Assembly: GCA_013151965.1 (NCBI GenBank)
Contig: JAADHF010000063.1
Location: 1 to 47,786, forward strand
Length of the DNA stretch: 47,786 bases
Origin: Spirochaetota bacterium
Lineage (GTDB): Bacteria > Spirochaetota > Spirochaetia > SZUA-6
Direction of reading: 5' to 3'
Part shown: piece after piece, positions 8,625-26,710 of the stretch
Layout: every line of letters starts with the position of its first letter
How positions within the stretch are numbered: position 1 is the first letter of the stretch
Position numbers and translations under genes: made by a program
The notes under the pieces: generated by a model
Databases searched by the model: none
Seen by the model: the letters and a program-made list of their open reading frames with translations, nothing else
What the model was told of the DNA's origin: nothing

Positions 8625-8684
8625 CAGTATTTTCCGCAGATGTTATTACTGATCAAGGGGCAAAATGCCGAAAAATGATATGTG

Positions 8685-9845
8685 ATGCGGAATATCTTAA
8701 GCTGGATTACTTCGAACATAAGGATAGGGGAGATAGAACTTTCTTTCTCTCCTCTGCAGGTTATTATTCGTTTTATACTGCCGCTTTCCGGTCTTTTTAT
8801 ACTTTACAAAATACTGTTGTATCTATCCAGGAAAGTCATATACAAGCCGAAAAAACTAAACATCAAATTAAAGAAAAATATATTCAAGTACACAAGACTC
8901 GGATTAAGGATAATCTTTTTAGCAATAACGGCAGTACTTATTGCAAATTTCTTCGAGACGGAAATACAGAAGTATATGTTAAGCTTCTGGAATATTCTTA
9001 AGCAGCCGTTTTTTTCATCCGGCGGAACTAATATTTCAATAATCACAGTTTTGCTTGCAATTCCCGTGTTTTATATAGCCTCATGGTCTGCAAAGGCAAC
9101 AAAGGGATTTATAGATACAACCGTTTTAAACAGAATTACAATAGATGAATCAACTAAATTCTCCATTTCGACACTTATAAGATATACCGTGCTTACAATA
9201 GTTATCGTAATCGGGTTATCGATTATCGGGCTTAACCTGTCCTCCCTGGCGGTTATTTTCGGTGTTCTCGGAATCGGACTCGGTTTCGGTCTGCAGGATA
9301 CCGTTGCAAATTTCTTCGCCGGTATTATCATTATCTTTGAACGCCCCATAAAAGAGGGGGATAGAATATTAATCGGTGATCTGGAAGGGGATATTGTGCA
9401 GATAAAACTGCGCTCTACAATTATTAATACCCTGACTAATGAGAGTATTATGATACCGAACAGAAAACTTGTAGGTGATAATATCCACAACTATTCCTAC
9501 AAGGACAGAAGAATTATAATAATCAACAAGGTGCAGGTATCATATCAGACAGACCTGGAGACTGCACGGAAAGTCCTGCTTCGGTTATCGGAAGGCTGTC
9601 CTTATGTAATACCAGGGAAGGATTCGGAGGTAAGAGTGGCGGAATTCCAGGATTCGGGAATTCTCATGGAACTATGGAGCTGGATTCCGGATTCGACTCA
9701 GAAGTTAAAAGCACTCTCATGGATTAATTTCGAAATCTGGAAGCAGTTTAAGGAAAACGGAATTGTAATACCATTTCCTCAGATTGATGTCCATATGGAT
9801 AAACAGACTGTTAATATACCTGTAGAATCTCCGGCGGAAGATTAA
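8685..9845 (+). CDS. MscS-family small-conductance mechanosensitive channel
   Basis: An inner-membrane channel of about 386 residues that opens under membrane tension to release solutes on osmotic downshock. Hydrophobic segments lie at about 27-48, 73-92, 118-136, 165-184 and 188-218. The last is the pore-lining TM3 with Gly/Ala packing 'LGIGLGFGLQDTVANFFAG', followed by the MscS signature 'FERPIKEGDRI' and the beta domain ('NTLTNESIMIPNRKLV'). The C-terminal alpha/beta domain ends near 'IDVHMDKQTVN'. Two extra N-terminal helices make it longer than E. coli MscS (286 residues). The frame can also start at GTG 8682; neither start has a good ribosome site, and I chose the ATG one codon later. 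Confidence 0.9.
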   Translation: MRNILSWITSNIRIGEIELSFSPLQVIIRFILPLSGLFILYKILLYLSRKVIYKPKKLNIKLKKNIFKYTRLGLRIIFLAITAVLIANFFETEIQKYMLSFWNILKQPFFSSGGTNISIITVLLAIPVFYIASWSAKATKGFIDTTVLNRITIDESTKFSISTLIRYTVLTIVIVIGLSIIGLNLSSLAVIFGVLGIGLGFGLQDTVANFFAGIIIIFERPIKEGDRILIGDLEGDIVQIKLRSTIINTLTNESIMIPNRKLVGDNIHNYSYKDRRIIIINKVQVSYQTDLETARKVLLRLSEGCPYVIPGKDSEVRVAEFQDSGILMELWSWIPDSTQKLKALSWINFEIWKQFKENGIVIPFPQIDVHMDKQTVNIPVESPAED

Positions 9846-17753: not shown

Positions 17754-18473
17754 CTATTTATGCTGAACTTTAGCAACACCGCTGATTTTAATACGTTCTT
17801 CCGATACGGATCCGTAATACTTTAAAAGTCCTGCTCCGCTTATGCTTCCCTTTAGAATACCGCCTGTCATGGTAAGCACAATACTACCCGCACCGCTCAT
17901 GTTGACATCCGCATCATGCACGGGCACATCCTTTAAATCCATATCCGCACCCCCGCTTATATTCAGGTTAAGGCTGTTAAAGCTGCTCTTGCTTCCCTTT
18001 ACGGATATTCCTCCTGCAAAAGTGATATTGATATTATTTCCTGTAAACCCGGTGAAGGAAGCGGAAAGGCCCCCGTTTCCATTAAGGCCGGCCAGGGAAG
18101 GCATGGTGATGTATGCTTTTGCTTTTATTTTCCTTAAAGTAGTACCGGGCACAAATCCGAGGTACAGGGTATTGCCGTTTTTTCTTATATCCAGATTCTT
18201 GCTCTGTCTCTTTGTAAAATCTATTTTAACCTGCCATGCAGTGCCCTGCCGGATACGGACTTTCCACCCTCCATTGGCTTCCACACGGTTAAAATCCGTT
18301 ATTTTAAATAAACTTGTTTCCATTCCGGGTTCCGGTATCGATAATATGCCTGATGATGTACCGGTTTTAGTTAGAACTTTACCTGTATAGTAGCGGAAAA
18401 TACCCGTAAGAATAATAAGTATGACAACAATAGAAACTCCTGCATAGATAAGTATTTTATTACTTTTTTTCAT
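17754..18473 (-). CDS. GIN/DUF2807-domain membrane-anchored protein
   Basis: A 239-residue protein with one N-terminal membrane anchor (about 7-27) and a DUF2807 (GIN, 'putative auto-transporter adhesin head') domain. 'FNRVEANGGWKVRIRQG' opens the domain, followed by short Gly/Ser-rich beta repeats such as 'LNGNGGLSASFTGF', 'LNISGGADMDL' and 'VNMSGAGSIVL', which should form a right-handed beta solenoid. It is probably displayed on the outer face of the inner membrane. The ATG overlaps the GntR gene stop (ATGA) and has its own GGAGA site, so the two are translationally coupled. This ties the protein to the ABC transporter operon. Function is unknown; an envelope-stress role is only a guess. 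Confidence 0.82.
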   Translation of the reverse strand: MKKSNKILIYAGVSIVVILIILTGIFRYYTGKVLTKTGTSSGILSIPEPGMETSLFKITDFNRVEANGGWKVRIRQGTAWQVKIDFTKRQSKNLDIRKNGNTLYLGFVPGTTLRKIKAKAYITMPSLAGLNGNGGLSASFTGFTGNNINITFAGGISVKGSKSSFNSLNLNISGGADMDLKDVPVHDADVNMSGAGSIVLTMTGGILKGSISGAGLLKYYGSVSEERIKISGVAKVQHK

Positions 18474-18841
18474 GCTGATCTCCTCTCTTTGTACTCTTTG
18501 TATAATTCCTGCAATGTCTCAAAATTTATATTTAGAATATCGATCATCTTAAAGATGTATGGTAGTTCATTCTGAATAAAATCATCTTTTTTTAGATGTA
18601 ATGCTGTCATATATGCTCCTTTCATTATAAAATATCCGATTCCCCTTTTGTTGTGTATAATTCTCCCCTCCTGGAGGTAGTTGTACGCTCTCATTACAGT
18701 ATTGGGATTTACCTCCATAGTTACTGCCATTTCCCGTATGGAGGGAATCCTCTGCTCTTCTTTCCATGTTTTAGTCAGTATGTTTTCGCAGATCGTATCT
18801 GCAATCTGAATATAGATAGCCTTGTTTCCTCTATACTCCAT
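18470..18841 (-). CDS. GntR-family regulator, YtrA type
   Basis: A 123-residue short GntR regulator. The N-terminal winged helix reads 'IYIQIADTICENIL', 'RIPSIREMAVTMEVNPNTV' and 'MRAYNYLQEGRIIHNKRGIGYF'. The C-terminal part is only about 45 residues and helical, the build of the YtrA subfamily, which usually represses its own ABC-transporter operon. It overlaps the permease gene stop by 11 bases upstream and the GIN gene start downstream. An 11-bp inverted repeat over the operon promoter (20515-20550) carries AGTGT/ACACT half-sites like those reported for YtrA, and is its likely operator. The effector is unknown; YtrA relatives respond to cell-wall stress. Confidence 0.9.
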   Translation of the reverse strand: MEYRGNKAIYIQIADTICENILTKTWKEEQRIPSIREMAVTMEVNPNTVMRAYNYLQEGRIIHNKRGIGYFIMKGAYMTALHLKKDDFIQNELPYIFKMIDILNINFETLQELYKEYKERRSA

Positions 18842-19634
18842 TTTTTACCTCTTTTTCTGTTATTCTAAAGTAGGTCAGCAGCCAGAAGAAGGGAGCAAAG
18901 AGAGCATAATAGACAATCTTTCCGGATACGGCCAGTATTCTCATTAGATTTGTTATGTGCAGTGCAAAAGCATCCCAGCTAAAATTAAATGCGGAATTAA
19001 AACGTCCGTCCGGTTTTATGATTTCGTTGAAATACTGAAAAAAGAATATGCGGCCGAGCAGTCCGGCAATAATTGCAATGGAAATAACAAAGGTAAGCAG
19101 GGAAAGTATCGTTTTTATGAAGTGGTTCTTTTTAAAGTATGCCGCACCGAAGAGGAAAACGGACTGTGTTATAAGGTACTGTAATATAACAAACCATGTA
19201 TCCGCATCGAAGGGATTAAAGAACGTATGCCTGTAGTTAAAAATAAGGCTGTTTATGCCTTCTCCCGCAAGCGCGGACAGGGTGTAAACGATAAGAAAAA
19301 GAAATGCCCAGCCTATCGATGAAATAAGCAGTTTTGCCGTAAATTTTTCCAGCATCGATGCCGGAAGCATAAACCATTCGTATGCACGCTCTTTACTGTG
19401 CATATCGGTGAAACTCTTTGCAGTAATTACATATCCGAAAATAAAGAGGATTAATGAGAAATTAACAAGATGTGAAAATTCCGAATCTCCTGTAATAACA
19501 GCAAGAATAGGCAGTACAATGGTTACGGCGCTTAAAGTAATAAAGGAAATAAGTATGGATTTGCTGCTTAAAAAGGTATCATGCTTTAAAAGCATCAGAA
19601 TTCGTTCTGTTTTTAAAGTATTATTCAGTTTCAT
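18831..19634 (-). CDS. ABC transporter permease-like membrane protein
   Basis: The frame is open from 19712, but an AAAGGAG site stands just before the ATG at 19634 ('MKLNNTLKTERILM'), so I take 267 residues. About six hydrophobic helices are visible, for example 'SILISFITLSAVTIVLPIL' and 'LISSIGWAFLFLIVYTLS'. The conserved 'DMHSKERAYEWFMLPAS' stretch is typical of this ABC-2-like permease group. It overlaps the ATPase gene by 14 bases and the GntR gene by 11 bases, so all three are coupled. Together with the ATPase it should form an ABC exporter or a sensor-like transporter; the substrate is unknown. Confidence 0.75.
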   Translation of the reverse strand: MKLNNTLKTERILMLLKHDTFLSSKSILISFITLSAVTIVLPILAVITGDSEFSHLVNFSLILFIFGYVITAKSFTDMHSKERAYEWFMLPASMLEKFTAKLLISSIGWAFLFLIVYTLSALAGEGINSLIFNYRHTFFNPFDADTWFVILQYLITQSVFLFGAAYFKKNHFIKTILSLLTFVISIAIIAGLLGRIFFFQYFNEIIKPDGRFNSAFNFSWDAFALHITNLMRILAVSGKIVYYALFAPFFWLLTYFRITEKEVKNGV

Positions 19635-20496
19635 TATCAGTCTCCTTTTTGCTGCCGAAAATACTCGAGATTCTGTCCTTTCCTGATATAACAGCATTGA
19701 ATAAAACTTCAATATCTATTGTTGTTCCTTCTGACGGATGGGATCGGATAAAAGCATAACCGCCTAATGTTTTTTCCCGATAGATAACGTCGGCTCCTTC
19801 CGGTTTTTCCTTTTGCACATCCATGCTTAATCTGGATGATATGGATTCCAGTGTTTCGTTCAGTATTATTTTTCCATTATCCAGAATAATAAGCGGGTCT
19901 ATTATATGCTCCAGATCCCGGACCTGGTGAGTCGATATTATGAATGTCTGATTATCCCTGACCGACCCGGATACGAGCCTTCTGAACTGACTCTTTGATG
20001 GTATATCGAGACCGTTTGTCGGTTCGTCCAGTACAATCAGCCGGCATCCGGTCGACAGGCCGAATGCAATCAGGAACTTCTTCTTCTGGCCGTAGGATAA
20101 TGAGTTGAGTTTTTTATCGGAATCGATTTCGAACTCCTCTGTGTATTTTGTAAACAATTCAATATTAAAATCCGGGTAAAAGGAGCTGTAAATCTTTACA
20201 TAGTTTTTTCCTGTCAGGGCCGGGAGGTAAAATTCTTCCGGAAGAAAGTATATTTTCGAAAGCATGCCGGGTAAGCGTCTGCCGGGATCGGTGCCGAGAA
20301 CCGTTATTTCTCCGGCCTGTTTAAAGAGCTGGCCTGTAATAATTTTAAGAAACGTTGTTTTCCCCGCTCCGTTTCGGCCTAAAAGGCCGTAGATATTCGA
20401 TTCTTTAAGGGAAAGGGAGAGATTGTTAAACAGAGCATGTTCATTACTCTTTCGGCTGCTCCCATAGGAAAAGGTCAGATTTCTTATGGCTACCAT
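19621..20496 (-). CDS. ABC transporter ATP-binding protein
   Basis: A 291-residue nucleotide-binding subunit. Walker A is 'GRNGAGKT' at 40-47, signature 'LSYGQ' at 133-137, Walker B 'LIVLDEPTNGLD' at 153-164, and the H-loop is in 'FIISTHQV'. The usual Q-loop glutamine is replaced in 'YFLPEE' (E87), which also occurs in some YtrB-like ATPases. The C-terminal 70 residues are an extra domain. It is the first gene of a coupled operon: ATPase, permease, GntR, GIN protein. The ATG has a strong AGGAGG site at 20503-20508 (minus strand), and promoter and operator lie just upstream. Confidence 0.93.
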   Translation of the reverse strand: MVAIRNLTFSYGSSRKSNEHALFNNLSLSLKESNIYGLLGRNGAGKTTFLKIITGQLFKQAGEITVLGTDPGRRLPGMLSKIYFLPEEFYLPALTGKNYVKIYSSFYPDFNIELFTKYTEEFEIDSDKKLNSLSYGQKKKFLIAFGLSTGCRLIVLDEPTNGLDIPSKSQFRRLVSGSVRDNQTFIISTHQVRDLEHIIDPLIILDNGKIILNETLESISSRLSMDVQKEKPEGADVIYREKTLGGYAFIRSHPSEGTTIDIEVLFNAVISGKDRISSIFGSKKETDNETE

Positions 20497-20587: not shown

Positions 20588-21808
20588 CTATATATCCAGT
20601 TTTTTCTTTATATAATCCTTTAACTCTGTTATTTCAGCTGCACGTTCCACTGTTTCCCGCCATTTTTTTGCAAAGTTAAAATATTTCGAGGCGTTTCCTG
20701 CCCTTTCCAGAGCTTCATTTAAAAGAACTTCGGGCCGGGGAAAGAACCTTTCATCCGCATCTTCCGGGCGCTCCCTGTTAAGGATATCGAGTGCCTGGTC
20801 TTCCAGACCCTCTTTAAGAAATTCTCCCGGATAAAACCCCAGTTCCTCCGCACGGACGGATGTAAATCCGGGTATTTTCTGTGACAGTTTTATCTTTTCC
20901 TTTTCATAGACAAACCGCAGTATGTCACGCTGCAGTTTTGCATAGGGAGTGGTGTTTATATGAAATTTCCCGGAAGATGCGGGAGGAAGATGGGTTATAA
21001 AGAGTTCTTTATCGAAGAACCAGTTATACCCCGACATCCTTGAATTTATAAGATAGTCTATATCTTCCCCTCTTGTAATACCGGGGTCAAAGGGAACACG
21101 GATGTAGAGATCTCTTGTAAAGACCATGTTTCCGCCCAGGGCAACGGCAGATTCTACAGGGCGCTCCTTAACGAGCATGTATTTTGAAAACTCATCGTTC
21201 ATCAGCGCTGCCTTTTTTATAAATATATTTTCCGACCTGCGGGAACCGGCCGGTTCTTTAAGCCTGTAGTCACCTTCAGTATTGAGATATATACCAGCAA
21301 TGCCGTCTGCCGTCTTTCCTCTTACTTCTTTTCCCGCATAATCCTGAGCTCTTATTAGGTAGTCAGGCGGAACAATCTCATCATCGTCGACTGCAGCTAT
21401 AAGCTCCGCATCGAGCAGGGCAGATGTAAAAAGCTGGCAGTTTCTTATCTGTGCATATGCCTCGAGGCTTATGATGTCCGGGCTGCAGTTATGGCGGATA
21501 AGTATTTCCTGAACATATTTAAGGTCCTCCGGCCCGAACTGCATTACAGGGTATATTGATTTATAAGGTTCAATAATTCTTTCTATTTTTTCTTCGGCCT
21601 GTCCTGAAATACGGGGGTTTACAGGAGCGGTAATAAGAATAACATAAAAACTGCCTCCTGCAAGGCCTTTTAGACTATTCAGTGTTGTGTCAAGGGTTCC
21701 TTCAAGATTAAGCGGGGTAGGGTGGTCAAAAACTGCATCCTCAGGCAGGTTCTCTTTGGTTGTTTCCCATGACCAGTAGGTAGGTATTGTTACCGCTATT
21801 TTTTTCAC
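20588..21808 (-). CDS. GT-A-fold glycosyltransferase-like protein
   Basis: A 406-residue protein with the look of a GT-A glycosyltransferase. It opens 'KKIAVTIPTYWSW', has an acidic cluster D141-D142-D143-E144 in 'LIAAVDDDEIVPPDY' as the metal/nucleotide-sugar site, and later 'RGEDIDYLINSRMSGY' near 245-262 as the acceptor and catalytic region. The C-terminal 100 residues are a helical extension. It is the third gene in a run of three minus-strand glycosyltransferases, 24 bases after the preceding one, and lies next to a sugar phosphorylase. I cannot name donor or acceptor. A role in making a glycosylated solute or glycan is inference. Confidence 0.78.
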   Translation of the reverse strand: MKKIAVTIPTYWSWETTKENLPEDAVFDHPTPLNLEGTLDTTLNSLKGLAGGSFYVILITAPVNPRISGQAEEKIERIIEPYKSIYPVMQFGPEDLKYVQEILIRHNCSPDIISLEAYAQIRNCQLFTSALLDAELIAAVDDDEIVPPDYLIRAQDYAGKEVRGKTADGIAGIYLNTEGDYRLKEPAGSRRSENIFIKKAALMNDEFSKYMLVKERPVESAVALGGNMVFTRDLYIRVPFDPGITRGEDIDYLINSRMSGYNWFFDKELFITHLPPASSGKFHINTTPYAKLQRDILRFVYEKEKIKLSQKIPGFTSVRAEELGFYPGEFLKEGLEDQALDILNRERPEDADERFFPRPEVLLNEALERAGNASKYFNFAKKWRETVERAAEITELKDYIKKKLDI

Positions 21809-21832
21809 GGGGTCTCCTTTTAAGAATGAGAT

Positions 21833-23272
21833 TTAAGCTATATCGGATTTGTTTATTTCACCGGTTTTATTATTGCCGCTGTTGCTGCTGTCCTTGTGGC
21901 CGTGACCATTACCGTTGTGGCTGTTACCGTTACTATTATAACCGTGACCATCGTAGTTATTACCGCTGCCGTTACCGTTTAAGTATCCGTAGAAGCTCGT
22001 AAAAATAGAACGGAGCTTTCGTTTAAGTACCTGGTAGGAGAAGTGTTTTTTACCTATTTGATAGTTGCGCTCCACCATCTCTTCTCTCCGGTCCCTGCTT
22101 AAAAGGACATCCTTTACCTGATCGACAGCACGCTGGGTTAAAAAACCGTCTATGTCTATTACATCAAAACCCTTCGGTTCCAGATCTACGATATAAACCG
22201 AATAACGGTTTACGAGAAGGGGTTTTTTAAAATATACGGCCTCTAAAAAGGCATTTCCGAACCCTTCATAAAGACTCGGGTATGTAATTAAATCTGCATG
22301 AGGATATACATCCCAGAGTGAATAAAGTTTTTTCCCGGATTTTGAATACTTTCTCATATCATGCAGTCTGTTTGCAAGAAATTTTATGTTTACATGACGT
22401 TCCTGTGCGGTTTCTTTAATCCATTTGTAATATTCATCACCCTCGTCTCCGGTGGAATGAGATATCAGAAAGTTCAGATTGGGCATTTTAAGACGTTCGG
22501 TCAGGTAGAGAGCCTGTTCTATGCCTTTTCGTGAAATAACTCTTGTAGGCTGCAGTATCAGTATATCATCTTCCCTGAATTTAAAACGGGTTCTTAAATC
22601 GCGGTTAAAATCATCAAAATAAGTGGGCATCTTTTCAAAATCGAGGACATTGTAAATGACCGTAGAAGAAATGCCGCGTTTGGCTGCAAGTTCTGTCTGT
22701 GCGACCGAATTAATAACTACGTGCCGCAATGAGGGCAGATCGGGAGGAAATGCAGTCTGGAGTATATCCTGAATCGCGTTTAATAAAAATCTCGGCCTTT
22801 CCCATGCAAAGTCATGATGATGTCCTATTGATGGGATACCTGTTTCCACGATAACCTCTGTTAAGGCAAGCCCTAAAGGAATGTGCATAGGAATTGCAAG
22901 TACATTTTCTGCGATAATCATATCAATTTTAAACTTTTCAATGAATTTGTAGATCTTATTCTTTAAATATTCTTTATTCTTAAGAATAAGATCTGTTGTA
23001 TTTCTGTCCCGTATTTGTGTGCCGAATATGAGCCGGTTAATCTCGAGGTTTTCCGGATGCTGAAAAAAAGCTCTGGGAACATGCATACTCTTTTCCGGAT
23101 CTTTGTCGAGTTTGCCGGCAAACCAGAAGCAGTTATGATGAAAACTCTCCAGAACTTCCGCCCATTTTGTTGCTTCCAGAGAAACTCCGTCCAGTCCTGC
23201 AAACCTTGTGGATATAAAACCGATATTAAGCTGTTTGTGATTTTTCTCGTTTTTTGCGATGCGGTTATTCAT
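21833..23272 (-). CDS. GT4-like glycosyltransferase with an Asn/Gly/His-rich tail
   Basis: A 479-residue GT-B glycosyltransferase. The N-domain starts 'LNIGFISTRFAGLDGVSLE' and has 'HHHDFAWERPRF' at 151-162. The C-domain has 'LQPTRVISRKGIEQAL' (donor phosphate contacts R244 and K249) and an intact E-x7-E motif, E336 to E344 in 'YEGFGNAFLEA'. Similar sequences occur in thermophile and spirochaete solute-synthesis clusters as I recall; mannosylglucosylglycerate-type synthesis is possible but unproven. Residues 431-479 are a low-complexity Asn/Gly/His/Ser tail unlike the rest. The ATG overlaps the upstream glycosyltransferase stop by 8 bases, so the two are coupled. Confidence 0.82.
   Translation of the reverse strand: MNNRIAKNEKNHKQLNIGFISTRFAGLDGVSLEATKWAEVLESFHHNCFWFAGKLDKDPEKSMHVPRAFFQHPENLEINRLIFGTQIRDRNTTDLILKNKEYLKNKIYKFIEKFKIDMIIAENVLAIPMHIPLGLALTEVIVETGIPSIGHHHDFAWERPRFLLNAIQDILQTAFPPDLPSLRHVVINSVAQTELAAKRGISSTVIYNVLDFEKMPTYFDDFNRDLRTRFKFREDDILILQPTRVISRKGIEQALYLTERLKMPNLNFLISHSTGDEGDEYYKWIKETAQERHVNIKFLANRLHDMRKYSKSGKKLYSLWDVYPHADLITYPSLYEGFGNAFLEAVYFKKPLLVNRYSVYIVDLEPKGFDVIDIDGFLTQRAVDQVKDVLLSRDRREEMVERNYQIGKKHFSYQVLKRKLRSIFTSFYGYLNGNGSGNNYDGHGYNSNGNSHNGNGHGHKDSSNSGNNKTGEINKSDIA
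21836..21982 (-). repeat. Low-complexity coding stretch for the Asn/Gly/His-rich tail
   Basis: Short irregular repeats of AAC/AAT, GGT/GGC and CAC/CAT codons encode the last 49 residues of the glycosyltransferase ('GNGSGNNYDGHGYN', 'GNSHNGNGHGHKD' and similar). It looks like replication-slippage expansion. The reading frame is kept. Confidence 0.7.
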
Positions 23273-24887
23273 AAATTAGCCTTAAGTAGTCTTTTTTTAA
23301 GAAATTGTCAATAACGGATGTCTCTATTTGTTCAGATTTTATCTTATTTCTTTCCCTTTCGAGTATTCCGGCATCTTTAAAGGAATCGACTATTCTTTCT
23401 GCATGGAAAGCAAATGCTCTGTATCCGAACCTCTTCTCTATAATCTCGATGTTTTTTTTATAGCTGTTTATATCGATACTTTTATGGAGGAAGCTCTGCA
23501 GTTTATCCATGAGAAAATTATTAGCTCTGTAAAGTTCGGTTTTATACTCCTCCGACTGCAGTTTCTTTATCGTTTTTATCTGAAGGGGGATATTTAAAAA
23601 GGAGAAATCAACCATTTCATTATCCAGTTCCATATTCAATTCAGCCTCTGCTTTTTCAATCGATATTTCAGGAAGAAGGTTTTTAATCCCGGATAGTTTT
23701 TGTTTATACTCATCTATTAATAATTTTCGGTCTTTTTTTTGTACCGGACAAAGGAATTCGCTGTAAAAAAAGTGGGGATGATTGATAAAGATGTCCTCGA
23801 TTCCGGCAAGTACATCTATTTTCCTGGCTATAAGCGGAATACCCCGGAGCATGGACTGTATAAAGAGAAATCCGAACCCTTCCTGTACCGATGAGGAAAG
23901 TACGGTATCGCCTGCGGCCATCATATCTGCAAATGAGATGCCTATAAGATCAAGCCGGCTTCCTATTCCGAAGAGACCCGGAATAAACCCCTCTGCGTAC
24001 AGCTTTTTAACGCTGTCGGAGTAGGGTTTTTCATGTTTGGAAACACCGGGAAGAGTAACAAACAGGTTTGTTTTCCCTGGAACAAGGAGCGTTAATGCTG
24101 CAGCCTCTAATACATTCTTCCTCCTTATGGAACGTACCGGATACAGAGCTATTTTCCCTTCCTTAAATAGAATAGAAACCGGAGATCTGTCCGGCAGACC
24201 TTTTTTCCGAAAATAATCGAATATCTTATTCCTGACTGATTCTTTTTCCGCTTCGGTAATTCCGGTACTGAAGATTTCTACCGGATTTTCCAGAAGATAA
24301 ACAAAACCATCCGGTATACCGGACTTGATAAGAATATCTCTGTCCCTTGTGTTTATTACCGCATATCTTACGGATTTCGTAACCGGGTAGAGCGGGGAGG
24401 TAATATTCGACTTGAGGAATTTAAGGTTTTCAAATCTGCCGCTTTCCGGAAAATCGTGTATCTGAAAAATAATACGCTGATCTTTATATTTTTCCGTTAT
24501 ATTCAGCATAGCCTGTGTAAAGACAGGATTCTTTCCCAGGTGATGGTTATGAACCCACCAGATGCCGGAAGATGAACCGAACTGATTAATGAGCTCTTCT
24601 GCTAAAGTAACGGCCTTTTTATTAAAATCATCGATAAGGAATTTACCGGGATAGACATAATCCATCCCGGGAAGGTATTTAAACCGGAGAGTAATATTTT
24701 TTTTGATTTGATCGAAATACTTCTTAATACCGGTAATTACATCGCCGGTATTTTCCCGTTTTCCTGTGATAAGTGTTATGGAGTGTATATCTTCCATATA
24801 TTTGCCTGCTGCTTTTACCCCGTCACGTATTACACTTGTTACTCCGCCGGGAAGAAGATGATAGTGGAAAATATATAACTCGATCAT
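23265..24887 (-). CDS. GT-B-fold glycosyltransferase, EX7E variant
   Basis: A 540-residue GT-B glycosyltransferase. 'HYHLLPGGVTSVIRDG' at 8-23 is the Gly-rich acceptor-side loop. 'YPVRSIRRKN' at 249-258 is the usual donor-phosphate site. The motif that is normally E-x7-E reads E336 to Q344 ('QEGFGFLFIQSM'), so the second glutamate is glutamine. The C-terminal 130 residues are an extra helical region. It is the first of three minus-strand glycosyltransferase genes and is divergent from a sugar phosphorylase, separated by 83 bases. The substrate is unknown. The Q344 change could alter donor binding. Confidence 0.78.
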   Translation of the reverse strand: MIELYIFHYHLLPGGVTSVIRDGVKAAGKYMEDIHSITLITGKRENTGDVITGIKKYFDQIKKNITLRFKYLPGMDYVYPGKFLIDDFNKKAVTLAEELINQFGSSSGIWWVHNHHLGKNPVFTQAMLNITEKYKDQRIIFQIHDFPESGRFENLKFLKSNITSPLYPVTKSVRYAVINTRDRDILIKSGIPDGFVYLLENPVEIFSTGITEAEKESVRNKIFDYFRKKGLPDRSPVSILFKEGKIALYPVRSIRRKNVLEAAALTLLVPGKTNLFVTLPGVSKHEKPYSDSVKKLYAEGFIPGLFGIGSRLDLIGISFADMMAAGDTVLSSSVQEGFGFLFIQSMLRGIPLIARKIDVLAGIEDIFINHPHFFYSEFLCPVQKKDRKLLIDEYKQKLSGIKNLLPEISIEKAEAELNMELDNEMVDFSFLNIPLQIKTIKKLQSEEYKTELYRANNFLMDKLQSFLHKSIDINSYKKNIEIIEKRFGYRAFAFHAERIVDSFKDAGILERERNKIKSEQIETSVIDNFLKKDYLRLIYE

Positions 24888-24970
24888 TATGCAGGATAAT
24901 ATGAGTTCTTTTAAATCTTTTCCATACTTTTTATCTTGCTTTTTAACTATTTTTCTGTAAACTTCAAATA

Positions 24971-26710
24971 ATGAAAAATATAGTAGAAGAGCACCTGATA
25001 TTCTTATACGGTGCGGAAACAGGCCATGAAACGTATATTGCCATGTGCCGTTTAATAGAAAAATACAAGAATAAACTTATAAAACCTTCCGGTATACCTG
25101 AGAATGGCCTGCCGCTCGATGAGCGTGATGCGATTGTTATTACATATGGAGATCAATTTAGAAACGGAGATAAAGTACCGCTGGAAAACCTGGAGCACTT
25201 TTTTACCGAGTATGTGGGCGATGCTGTTTCCGGCATACATATACTTCCCTTTTCGCCGTACTCTTCCGATGATGGTTTTTCCATTATAGATTACAGGCAG
25301 GTAAATCCGGAATACGGTACCTGGGAAAATATAAAAAAGATTGCCGGCAGGTACAGGTTAATGGTAGACCTGGTCTGCAATCATGTCTCTGCAGAAAGTA
25401 TGTGGTTCCGGGAGTTTCTAAAGGGAAATCCGAAATACAAAGACTATTTTATCGTAGTGCCGGAAGGTACCGACCTCTCATCGGTTGTCCGGCCCAGAGC
25501 TCTGCCGCTTTTAAATGAATTTGATACGGCAGAGGGTAAAAAACTTTTGTGGACAACCTTCAGCAGGGATCAGATAGATTTAAATTATAAGAATCCGAAA
25601 CTTCTCTTAGAGATGATGGATATTATGCTGTTGTATATAGAAATGGGAGCTCAGATTATCCGGCTCGATGCAATTGCATACCTGTGGAAGGAAATAGGTA
25701 CTTCCTGTATCCATCTGGAACAGGTGCACAGGGTAGTTCAGCTTTTCAGGGCGGTATTCCGTGAGGCTGCACCATGGGTCGTTATTATAACGGAGACAAA
25801 TGTTCCTCATGAAGAAAACATATCGTACTTCGGAGACGGTTTCAACGAAGCTCAGATGGTGTATCAGTTCCCGCTCCCGCCGCTCGTTCTGGATGCTTTT
25901 TTAAGAGGAGAGGCAAATCATCTCCGTGAATGGGCATCCGGACTTAAATCGATAGAGGGGGATGTAACCTTTTTTAACTTTCTTGCTTCCCACGACGGAG
26001 TGGGGCTGCTTCCTGCTCATGGTATTTTAACCGATGATGAAATTAAAGATCTCGTTGAACTTTCACTGTCGCACGGAGGTTATGTATCGTATAAGGCTAC
26101 TCCCGGCGGTGATATACCCTATGAACTTAATATTACCTATTACAATGCAATTGTGGATCAGAATGAAAGCGATGAGCTAAAGATTAAAAAATTCTTAAGT
26201 TCTCAGTCTATCATGCTTTCCTTAAAAGGCGTGCCCGGCATTTATATACACAGCCTTCTCGGTACGGAAAATTACAGGGAAGGTGTTTCATCCACCGGGG
26301 CTAACAGGACAGTAAACAGAAGGAAATTTAAATACACGGAGATAGAAAAAATAATAAATGACGACAGCTCGAACGCTTCGAGGGTATTTAACGGGTTTAT
26401 AGAATTATTAAATGCACGAAAGTCCTTAAAAGCATTTCATCCCGGCGGCAGACAGGAAATTCTTAATGCCGAAGGTCCCGTGTTTGCGCTTGTCAGGACT
26501 TCGGTTGACGGAAGCGAAAAAGTATTCTGTATTCATAATGTCGGCAGCAGCAGGGTAAGCTACAGGTTGAATCTGCATGACAGTGCACAGGGAAGTTATT
26601 CTTCTTTTAAAGACATATTATCGGGACGAATAATTAAAATTAAGAAGGGCGAGCAATTTAAAGACATAGAACTTGCACCTTACGAAACCGTATGGTTTAG
26701 AGTTGTGTAA
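24971..26710 (+). CDS. GH13_18 sugar phosphorylase (sucrose/glucosylglycerate-phosphorylase type)
   Basis: A 579-residue alpha-amylase-superfamily enzyme of the sucrose-phosphorylase subfamily GH13_18. Catalytic residues are D233 (nucleophile, 'IIRLDAIAYLWK'), E275 (acid/base, 'VIITETNVPH') and D342 (stabiliser, 'LASHDGVGL'). These enzymes use phosphate to split alpha-glucosides into glucose 1-phosphate and the aglycone. Length is nearer to glucosylglycerate-type phosphorylases than to classical sucrose phosphorylase (about 490). The aglycone cannot be fixed by eye. Its place back to back with three glycosyltransferase genes suggests recycling of the compound they make, which is inference. 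Confidence 0.88.
   Translation: MKNIVEEHLIFLYGAETGHETYIAMCRLIEKYKNKLIKPSGIPENGLPLDERDAIVITYGDQFRNGDKVPLENLEHFFTEYVGDAVSGIHILPFSPYSSDDGFSIIDYRQVNPEYGTWENIKKIAGRYRLMVDLVCNHVSAESMWFREFLKGNPKYKDYFIVVPEGTDLSSVVRPRALPLLNEFDTAEGKKLLWTTFSRDQIDLNYKNPKLLLEMMDIMLLYIEMGAQIIRLDAIAYLWKEIGTSCIHLEQVHRVVQLFRAVFREAAPWVVIITETNVPHEENISYFGDGFNEAQMVYQFPLPPLVLDAFLRGEANHLREWASGLKSIEGDVTFFNFLASHDGVGLLPAHGILTDDEIKDLVELSLSHGGYVSYKATPGGDIPYELNITYYNAIVDQNESDELKIKKFLSSQSIMLSLKGVPGIYIHSLLGTENYREGVSSTGANRTVNRRKFKYTEIEKIINDDSSNASRVFNGFIELLNARKSLKAFHPGGRQEILNAEGPVFALVRTSVDGSEKVFCIHNVGSSRVSYRLNLHDSAQGSYSSFKDILSGRIIKIKKGEQFKDIELAPYETVWFRVV

Follow-up and report, generated by a model that had tools for sequence, protein, structure and literature searches.

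The window analysed here, a 47,786-bp stretch of a Spirochaetota genome, carries a four-gene cluster. With reasonable though not high confidence, its role is best read as processing and recycling within a solute pathway based on glucosylglycerate (GG). The observations behind this reading are the gene content, the membership of the phosphorylase in the 2-O-alpha-glucosylglycerate phosphorylases (GGaP) by tree and motifs, the folds of the glycosyltransferases, the synteny, and the co-occurrence with the glucosyl-3-phosphoglycerate synthase GpgS.

Results

The four open reading frames are all intact. Three lie on the minus strand: GTA (20588-21808; 406 aa, GTG start), a GT2-like GT-A glycosyltransferase recognised by its fold model; an MggS-like GT4 glycosyltransferase (21833-23272; 479 aa), recognised by Pfam and NF041101; and GTB2 (23265-24887; 540 aa), a GT4-like GT-B glycosyltransferase also recognised by its fold model. 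GTA and the MggS-like gene are separated by 24 bp, and the latter overlaps GTB2 by 8 bp. On the plus strand, 83 bp from GTB2, lies the GH13_18 GGaP gene (24971-26710; 579 aa), identified by its motifs and by a tree. The preliminary description of this DNA had seen one GT-A-like and two GT-B enzymes in a tight minus-strand run divergent from a phosphorylase, and the reading frames, Pfam and AlphaFold/Foldseek bore this out. The 83-bp intergenic region (24888-24970) is presumably the location of the promoters of both GGaP and GTB2; promoter consensus matches within it were weak and not above those of shuffled sequence. As long reading frames are kept across a class, the genes of the cluster are no chance feature. 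Directly downstream of GTA lie genes for a GntR-like regulator, an ABC permease and an ATPase (18470-20496, minus strand), which probably form their own transcription unit apart from the GTA run, since a 10/12 promoter match was found upstream of them.

On sequence grounds, the phosphorylase of the window is a GGaP and lies outside the clade formed by sucrose (SP), sucrose-phosphate (SPP) and glucosylglycerol (GGoP) phosphorylases. It matched the Pfam Alpha-amylase family (3e-23) and reached 204 bits against TIGR03852 (sucrose phosphorylase-like), for which the cut-off is 334. The three catalytic residues noticed in the preliminary description, D233, E275 and D342, were invariant in a 13-sequence alignment (A1), within the motifs RLDA, TETN and SHDG. 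Two features mark strict GGaPs (PMC7178133): beta-strand 5 bears (T/S)ETN, and loop A contains a Glu. Alignment A1 showed both signatures, TETN at 274-277 and PYE at 383-385. The (T/S)ETN motif was present in 121 of 124 GGaP-class proteins of the fetched loci, a count of records in which some loci overlap and which are thus not independent genes. Escherichia coli YcjM, annotated as a glucosylglycerate phosphorylase, was 46% identical to the window enzyme over residues 50-515.

In a maximum-likelihood tree, the GGaP group (95/94) held the window enzyme, as part of a spirochaete clade of 18 rows (100/99), along with YcjM and the Meiothermus enzyme, while the SP, SPP and GGoP of solved structure formed a separate group (100/100). 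The reference rows of this second group were the aligned parts of PDB chains, L236 was ignored (a wrong-frame reading frame with an extreme branch), and 12 of the 53 inner branches were open, so that the branching order within the GGaP group is not settled. Placement in a GH13_18 tree with characterised members had been proposed as a check, and a firm grouping with plain sucrose phosphorylases as part of the result that would speak against the suggested make-and-recycle module; the enzyme instead grouped with the GGaPs, and motifs and tree placement together rule out a sucrose phosphorylase. Like the known GGaPs (EC 2.4.1.352, GH13_18) of E. coli, Allomeiothermus silvanus and Spirochaeta thermophila, the window enzyme has the catalytic triad, the (T/S)ETN motif and the Glu of loop A, and it belongs to their clade; the S. 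thermophila enzyme is a proven GGaP (PMC7178133). Whereas YcjM has YcjNOPQRSTU as neighbours, the window GGaP has glycosyltransferase genes instead. The GGaPs of two other genomes (G032 and G057), about 54% identical to that of the window, have an adjacent, convergent MggS-like gene.

We also encountered a clade of GH13 proteins of 750-900 aa (L057:5902-8160, L058:6307-8574, L239 and L240), distant from GH13_18 and separate in the tree, with the motifs RLDA, LEVND, ESHDGKS and PYEL. Its members adjoin GTA in two genomes, and the one in L057 had no Pfam match.

The product of the middle transferase gene matched Pfam Glycos_transf_1 (3e-11) and, over nearly its full length (residues 16-422 on profile positions 2-429), the mannosylglucosylglycerate synthase family NF041101 (E=2.7e-74). 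With 250 bits against a cut-off of 640 it is a homolog of NF041101 and not an equivalog member; the highest score among the other homologs tested was 450 bits. The EX7E motif of GT4 enzymes is kept, with E336 and E344 invariant. We regard this protein as MggS-like, not as a proven MggS; a true MggS would use GDP-mannose as donor and GG as acceptor. Among 80 named loci, an uneven sample made up of the best matches listed, the MggS-like gene directly adjoined GGaP in 26 (Spirochaetota, Chloroflexota, Bacillota, Lentisphaerota and others) and was present anywhere in the locus in 35, many of the loci being ended by contig edges. As in the mannosylglucosylglycerate (MGG) pathway of Petrotoga (MggS; MggA/MggB), an MggS-like GT4 is linked to GG metabolism and GpgS is present in the genome; the window differs in that the score of its protein lies far below the MggS equivalog cut-off and in that two further transferase families and GGaP are linked.

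The C-terminal 50 or so residues of the MggS-like protein (gene at 21833-23272) are of low complexity and rich in Gly, Asn and His, a tail that is shorter in G003 and missing from most homologs. A second cluster of the same genome (L162, G000:C126) contains a GH130 enzyme, a GH38 alpha-mannosidase, an MsmK-type ATPase and permeases, as well as an MggS-like gene that is truncated where the contig stops.

GTB2 stayed below threshold for every Pfam and NCBIfam family, the best Pfam GT4-type domain being Glyco_trans_1_4 (13.6 bits, cut-off 27). Its fold is that of GT-B/GT4 enzymes (AlphaFold pLDDT 88; Foldseek matches HepE, GlgM, BshA and TreT, E 1e-9 to 1e-6), the second Glu of EX7E is replaced by Gln, and the protein ends in a helical extension of about 110 aa. 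We rejected an identity as TreT, to which the profile match was weak and covered only 37 residues (E 0.009).

Among 98 related genomes, GTB2 was found in 55 and GpgS above its cut-off in 57. Both were present in 54 and neither in 40 (Fisher p ~1e-22, a value that ignores shared ancestry); the 4 discordant genomes were G029, with GTB2 only, and G001, G023 and G052, with GpgS only. By our own count, GTB2 lay less than 2 kb from GGaP in 14 of the 98 genomes. Together with the position of the MggS-like gene beside GGaP, this answers the earlier call to look for conserved synteny: the transferases, whose lack of linkage to the phosphorylase in relatives had been named as evidence against a common module, are linked to it repeatedly, across families and phyla.

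GpgS of the window's genome (NF010496; G000:C139:29100-30038; 397 bits, cut-off 262) is encoded on another contig than the cluster, where it is paired not with GGaP but with an M20-like hydrolase (L186). An M20/M28-like hydrolase of this kind was regularly paired with GpgS in these spirochaetes (L054, L056, L171, L182-L186 and L192-L197), and the pathway proposed below has no step for it, which counts against that reading. With GpgS in the genome, GGaP is unlikely to be the only source of glucosylglycerate. GpgS occurred in a run with GTB2 in L054 (G018), L056 (G008), L171 (G071), L172 (G004), L192 (G025), L193 (G024), L195 (G016) and L196 (G037), and the runs of L054, L056, L171 and L172 also held GGaP. 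A HAD phosphatase was found within the clusters of L171 and L172; the former, in the order GGaP, M20-like hydrolase, GpgS, GTB2, HAD phosphatase and MggS-like gene, would by its predicted products hold nearly every step of the pathway proposed below. GGaP was missing from 17 of the 54 genomes with GpgS and GTB2, which implies that the transferases work without it, and six of the 98 genomes had GGaP without GpgS. Within the paper collection searched, none treated GpgS together with spirochaetes.

The cluster had been proposed to be a module that makes and recycles a solute. The identity of GGaP, the presence of GpgS in the genome, its co-occurrence with GTB2 and its position inside the clusters of relatives support this in part; the run itself, however, lacks the committing synthase, which is on G000:C139.

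GTA has a GT-A fold (AF2 pLDDT 90; Foldseek matches TarP and others, E about 1e-9) and belongs to no named family; its best Pfam GT2 family match (15.4 bits) did not reach the cut-off of 27, and single-sequence and profile searches against solved structures gave no convincing match. DDDE (141-144), which supplies the DxD motif, and GED (247-249) are invariant, the latter within a conserved GGNMxF...RGEDxDY stretch, and by analogy with GT2 enzymes GED may provide the catalytic base. Homologs were found in 15 of the 98 related genomes, 27 of 395 of the class and 7 of 301 of a phylum sample around a Chloroflexota genome. The order GTA, MggS-like gene, GTB2, GGaP was present in all three genomes of the window's family with enough contig (G000, G002 and G003). 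The suggestion that the three transferases form one module stood for the two GT-B genes, which are widespread, but GTA joins them in a full three-transferase run only in the window's family.

Elsewhere, GTA comes after GpgS in G018, belongs to a single run that also includes GGaP and MggS-like genes in two Chloroflexota loci (L087 and L125) or lies a few genes away from them (L220). It adjoins GH130 genes in L061, L125, L167, L169 and L212 (Spirochaetota and Chloroflexota), and in L061 it is also next to a glucosyl/mannosylglycerate-hydrolase-like domain. GT2-like GT-A enzymes are expected to be inverting, and with the GH130 neighbours this points, if weakly, to GTA forming a beta-linkage, perhaps of mannose. 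GH130 enzymes convert beta-mannosides to alpha-mannose-1-phosphate (PMC4264767), and the GH130 protein of L061 matched a 1,2-beta-oligomannan phosphorylase of solved structure with 470 bits. Close homologs of the Thermoanaerobacter enzymes of this type, Teth514_1788/1789, adjoin GTA homologs in L061, L125 and L212; the window, in contrast, is without GH130, the GH130 genes of its genome (G000) being on other contigs. Nor did any paper of the collection searched treat both GH130 and MGG. In six other loci of the Chloroflexota sample (L206-L211), GTA had no GGaP, MggS-like, GH130, hydrolase-like or 750-aa neighbours, so the GTA family is broader than the proposed pathway.

Two further associations of GTA were observed. 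In a Thermoflexia metagenome-assembled genome (L168:3-2318), a glucosylglycerate-hydrolase-like (MGH1) domain is fused to a GTA domain in a single 771-aa frame. In many spirochaetes a protein of about 750 aa adjoins GTA, often after ABC permeases (L069, L070, L213-L216 and L223-L225), and one member (L069:1880-4135) has a C-terminal NAGPA domain.

Genes for MscS channels were found near GGaP, the MggS-like gene or GTB2 in eight loci, not all independent (L060, L062, L075, L081, L082, L084, L091 and L093), a circumstantial fit with an osmotic role for the predicted products. The window also contains an MscS mechanosensitive channel gene (8682-9845, plus strand), 11 kb from GTA. ABC importers and LacI regulators occur in loci with GGaP, MggS-like or GTA genes (L066, L087 and L173), which suggests that in some lineages the same enzymes serve uptake and breakdown.

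Discussion

Petrotoga and Rhodopirellula are known to contain MGG as a solute (PMC3694870). In the pathway that we propose, GpgS, encoded elsewhere in the genome, would make glucosyl-3-phosphoglycerate, from which a phosphatase would release GG; the MggS-like GT4 and GTB2 would then add hexoses to give MGG or a longer relative, and in the window's family GTA would add one further residue, probably beta-linked. When the need for the solute has passed, phosphorolysis of GG by GGaP would yield glucose-1-phosphate and D-glycerate. What we infer, and did not observe, is which acceptors and donors are used, in what order the steps run, which phosphatase serves the window's genome, and that the product acts as an osmolyte. 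The metabolic function of GGaP is itself without experimental confirmation (PMC7178133). A more tentative reading, less likely than not, is that spirochaetes make an undescribed GG-based oligosaccharide that exceeds MGG in length. Two transferase families, both uncharacterised, would assemble it: GTB2 and, in some lineages, GTA, which would form a beta-linkage and may attach mannose. GGaP would take it apart, joined in some lineages by GH130 phosphorylases.

The transferases might instead build an oligo- or polysaccharide or a glycolipid primed by GG, with GGaP only clearing spare primer, as the methylglucose lipopolysaccharides of mycobacteria start on glucosylglycerate. We consider this rather unlikely. 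Two or three transferases are more than MGG requires, the 17 genomes in which GpgS and GTB2 persist without GGaP would be accounted for, an M20-like hydrolase accompanies GpgS, and in some loci (L060) a DrrA-type ABC ATPase and a membrane protein adjoin GTB2; but the NF041101 family is named after a soluble solute, phosphorolytic recycling and the MscS neighbours suit an osmolyte, and no recurring polymerase, flippase or lipid-linked enzyme was seen in the clusters.

Another reading, which we judge improbable, is that of a scavenging module in which mannosyl- or glucosylglycerate is imported and dismantled, the GT4, as has been proposed for TreT in archaea, or GTA running in the degradative direction. 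LacI, substrate-binding protein and permease genes do adjoin GGaP with the MggS-like gene, or GTA, in L066, L087, L173 and L220, L125 contains both GH38 and GH130, and the six genomes with GGaP but no GpgS would agree with such a role. The run of the window, however, includes no sugar importer, the nearest ABC genes being the ATPase/permease set with the GntR-type regulator, and GpgS is present in its genome and clustered in same-order relatives. That GGaP is placed here by chance or acts on sucrose, beside transferases of surface polysaccharide synthesis whose generic folds would allow it, is very hard to reconcile with a tree and motifs that exclude the sucrose phosphorylase group and with a linkage that recurs across families and phyla, 14 of the 98 genomes having GTB2 no more than 2 kb from GGaP.

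Because relatives keep most of the set together, these spirochaetes probably make and recycle a larger protective sugar derived from GG. Spirochaetes in which GpgS, two GT4 enzymes and GGaP occur together represent a directly testable case of a solute that is both made and recovered by phosphorolysis, and with GTB2 and GTA two new families of transferases would gain a place in a pathway.
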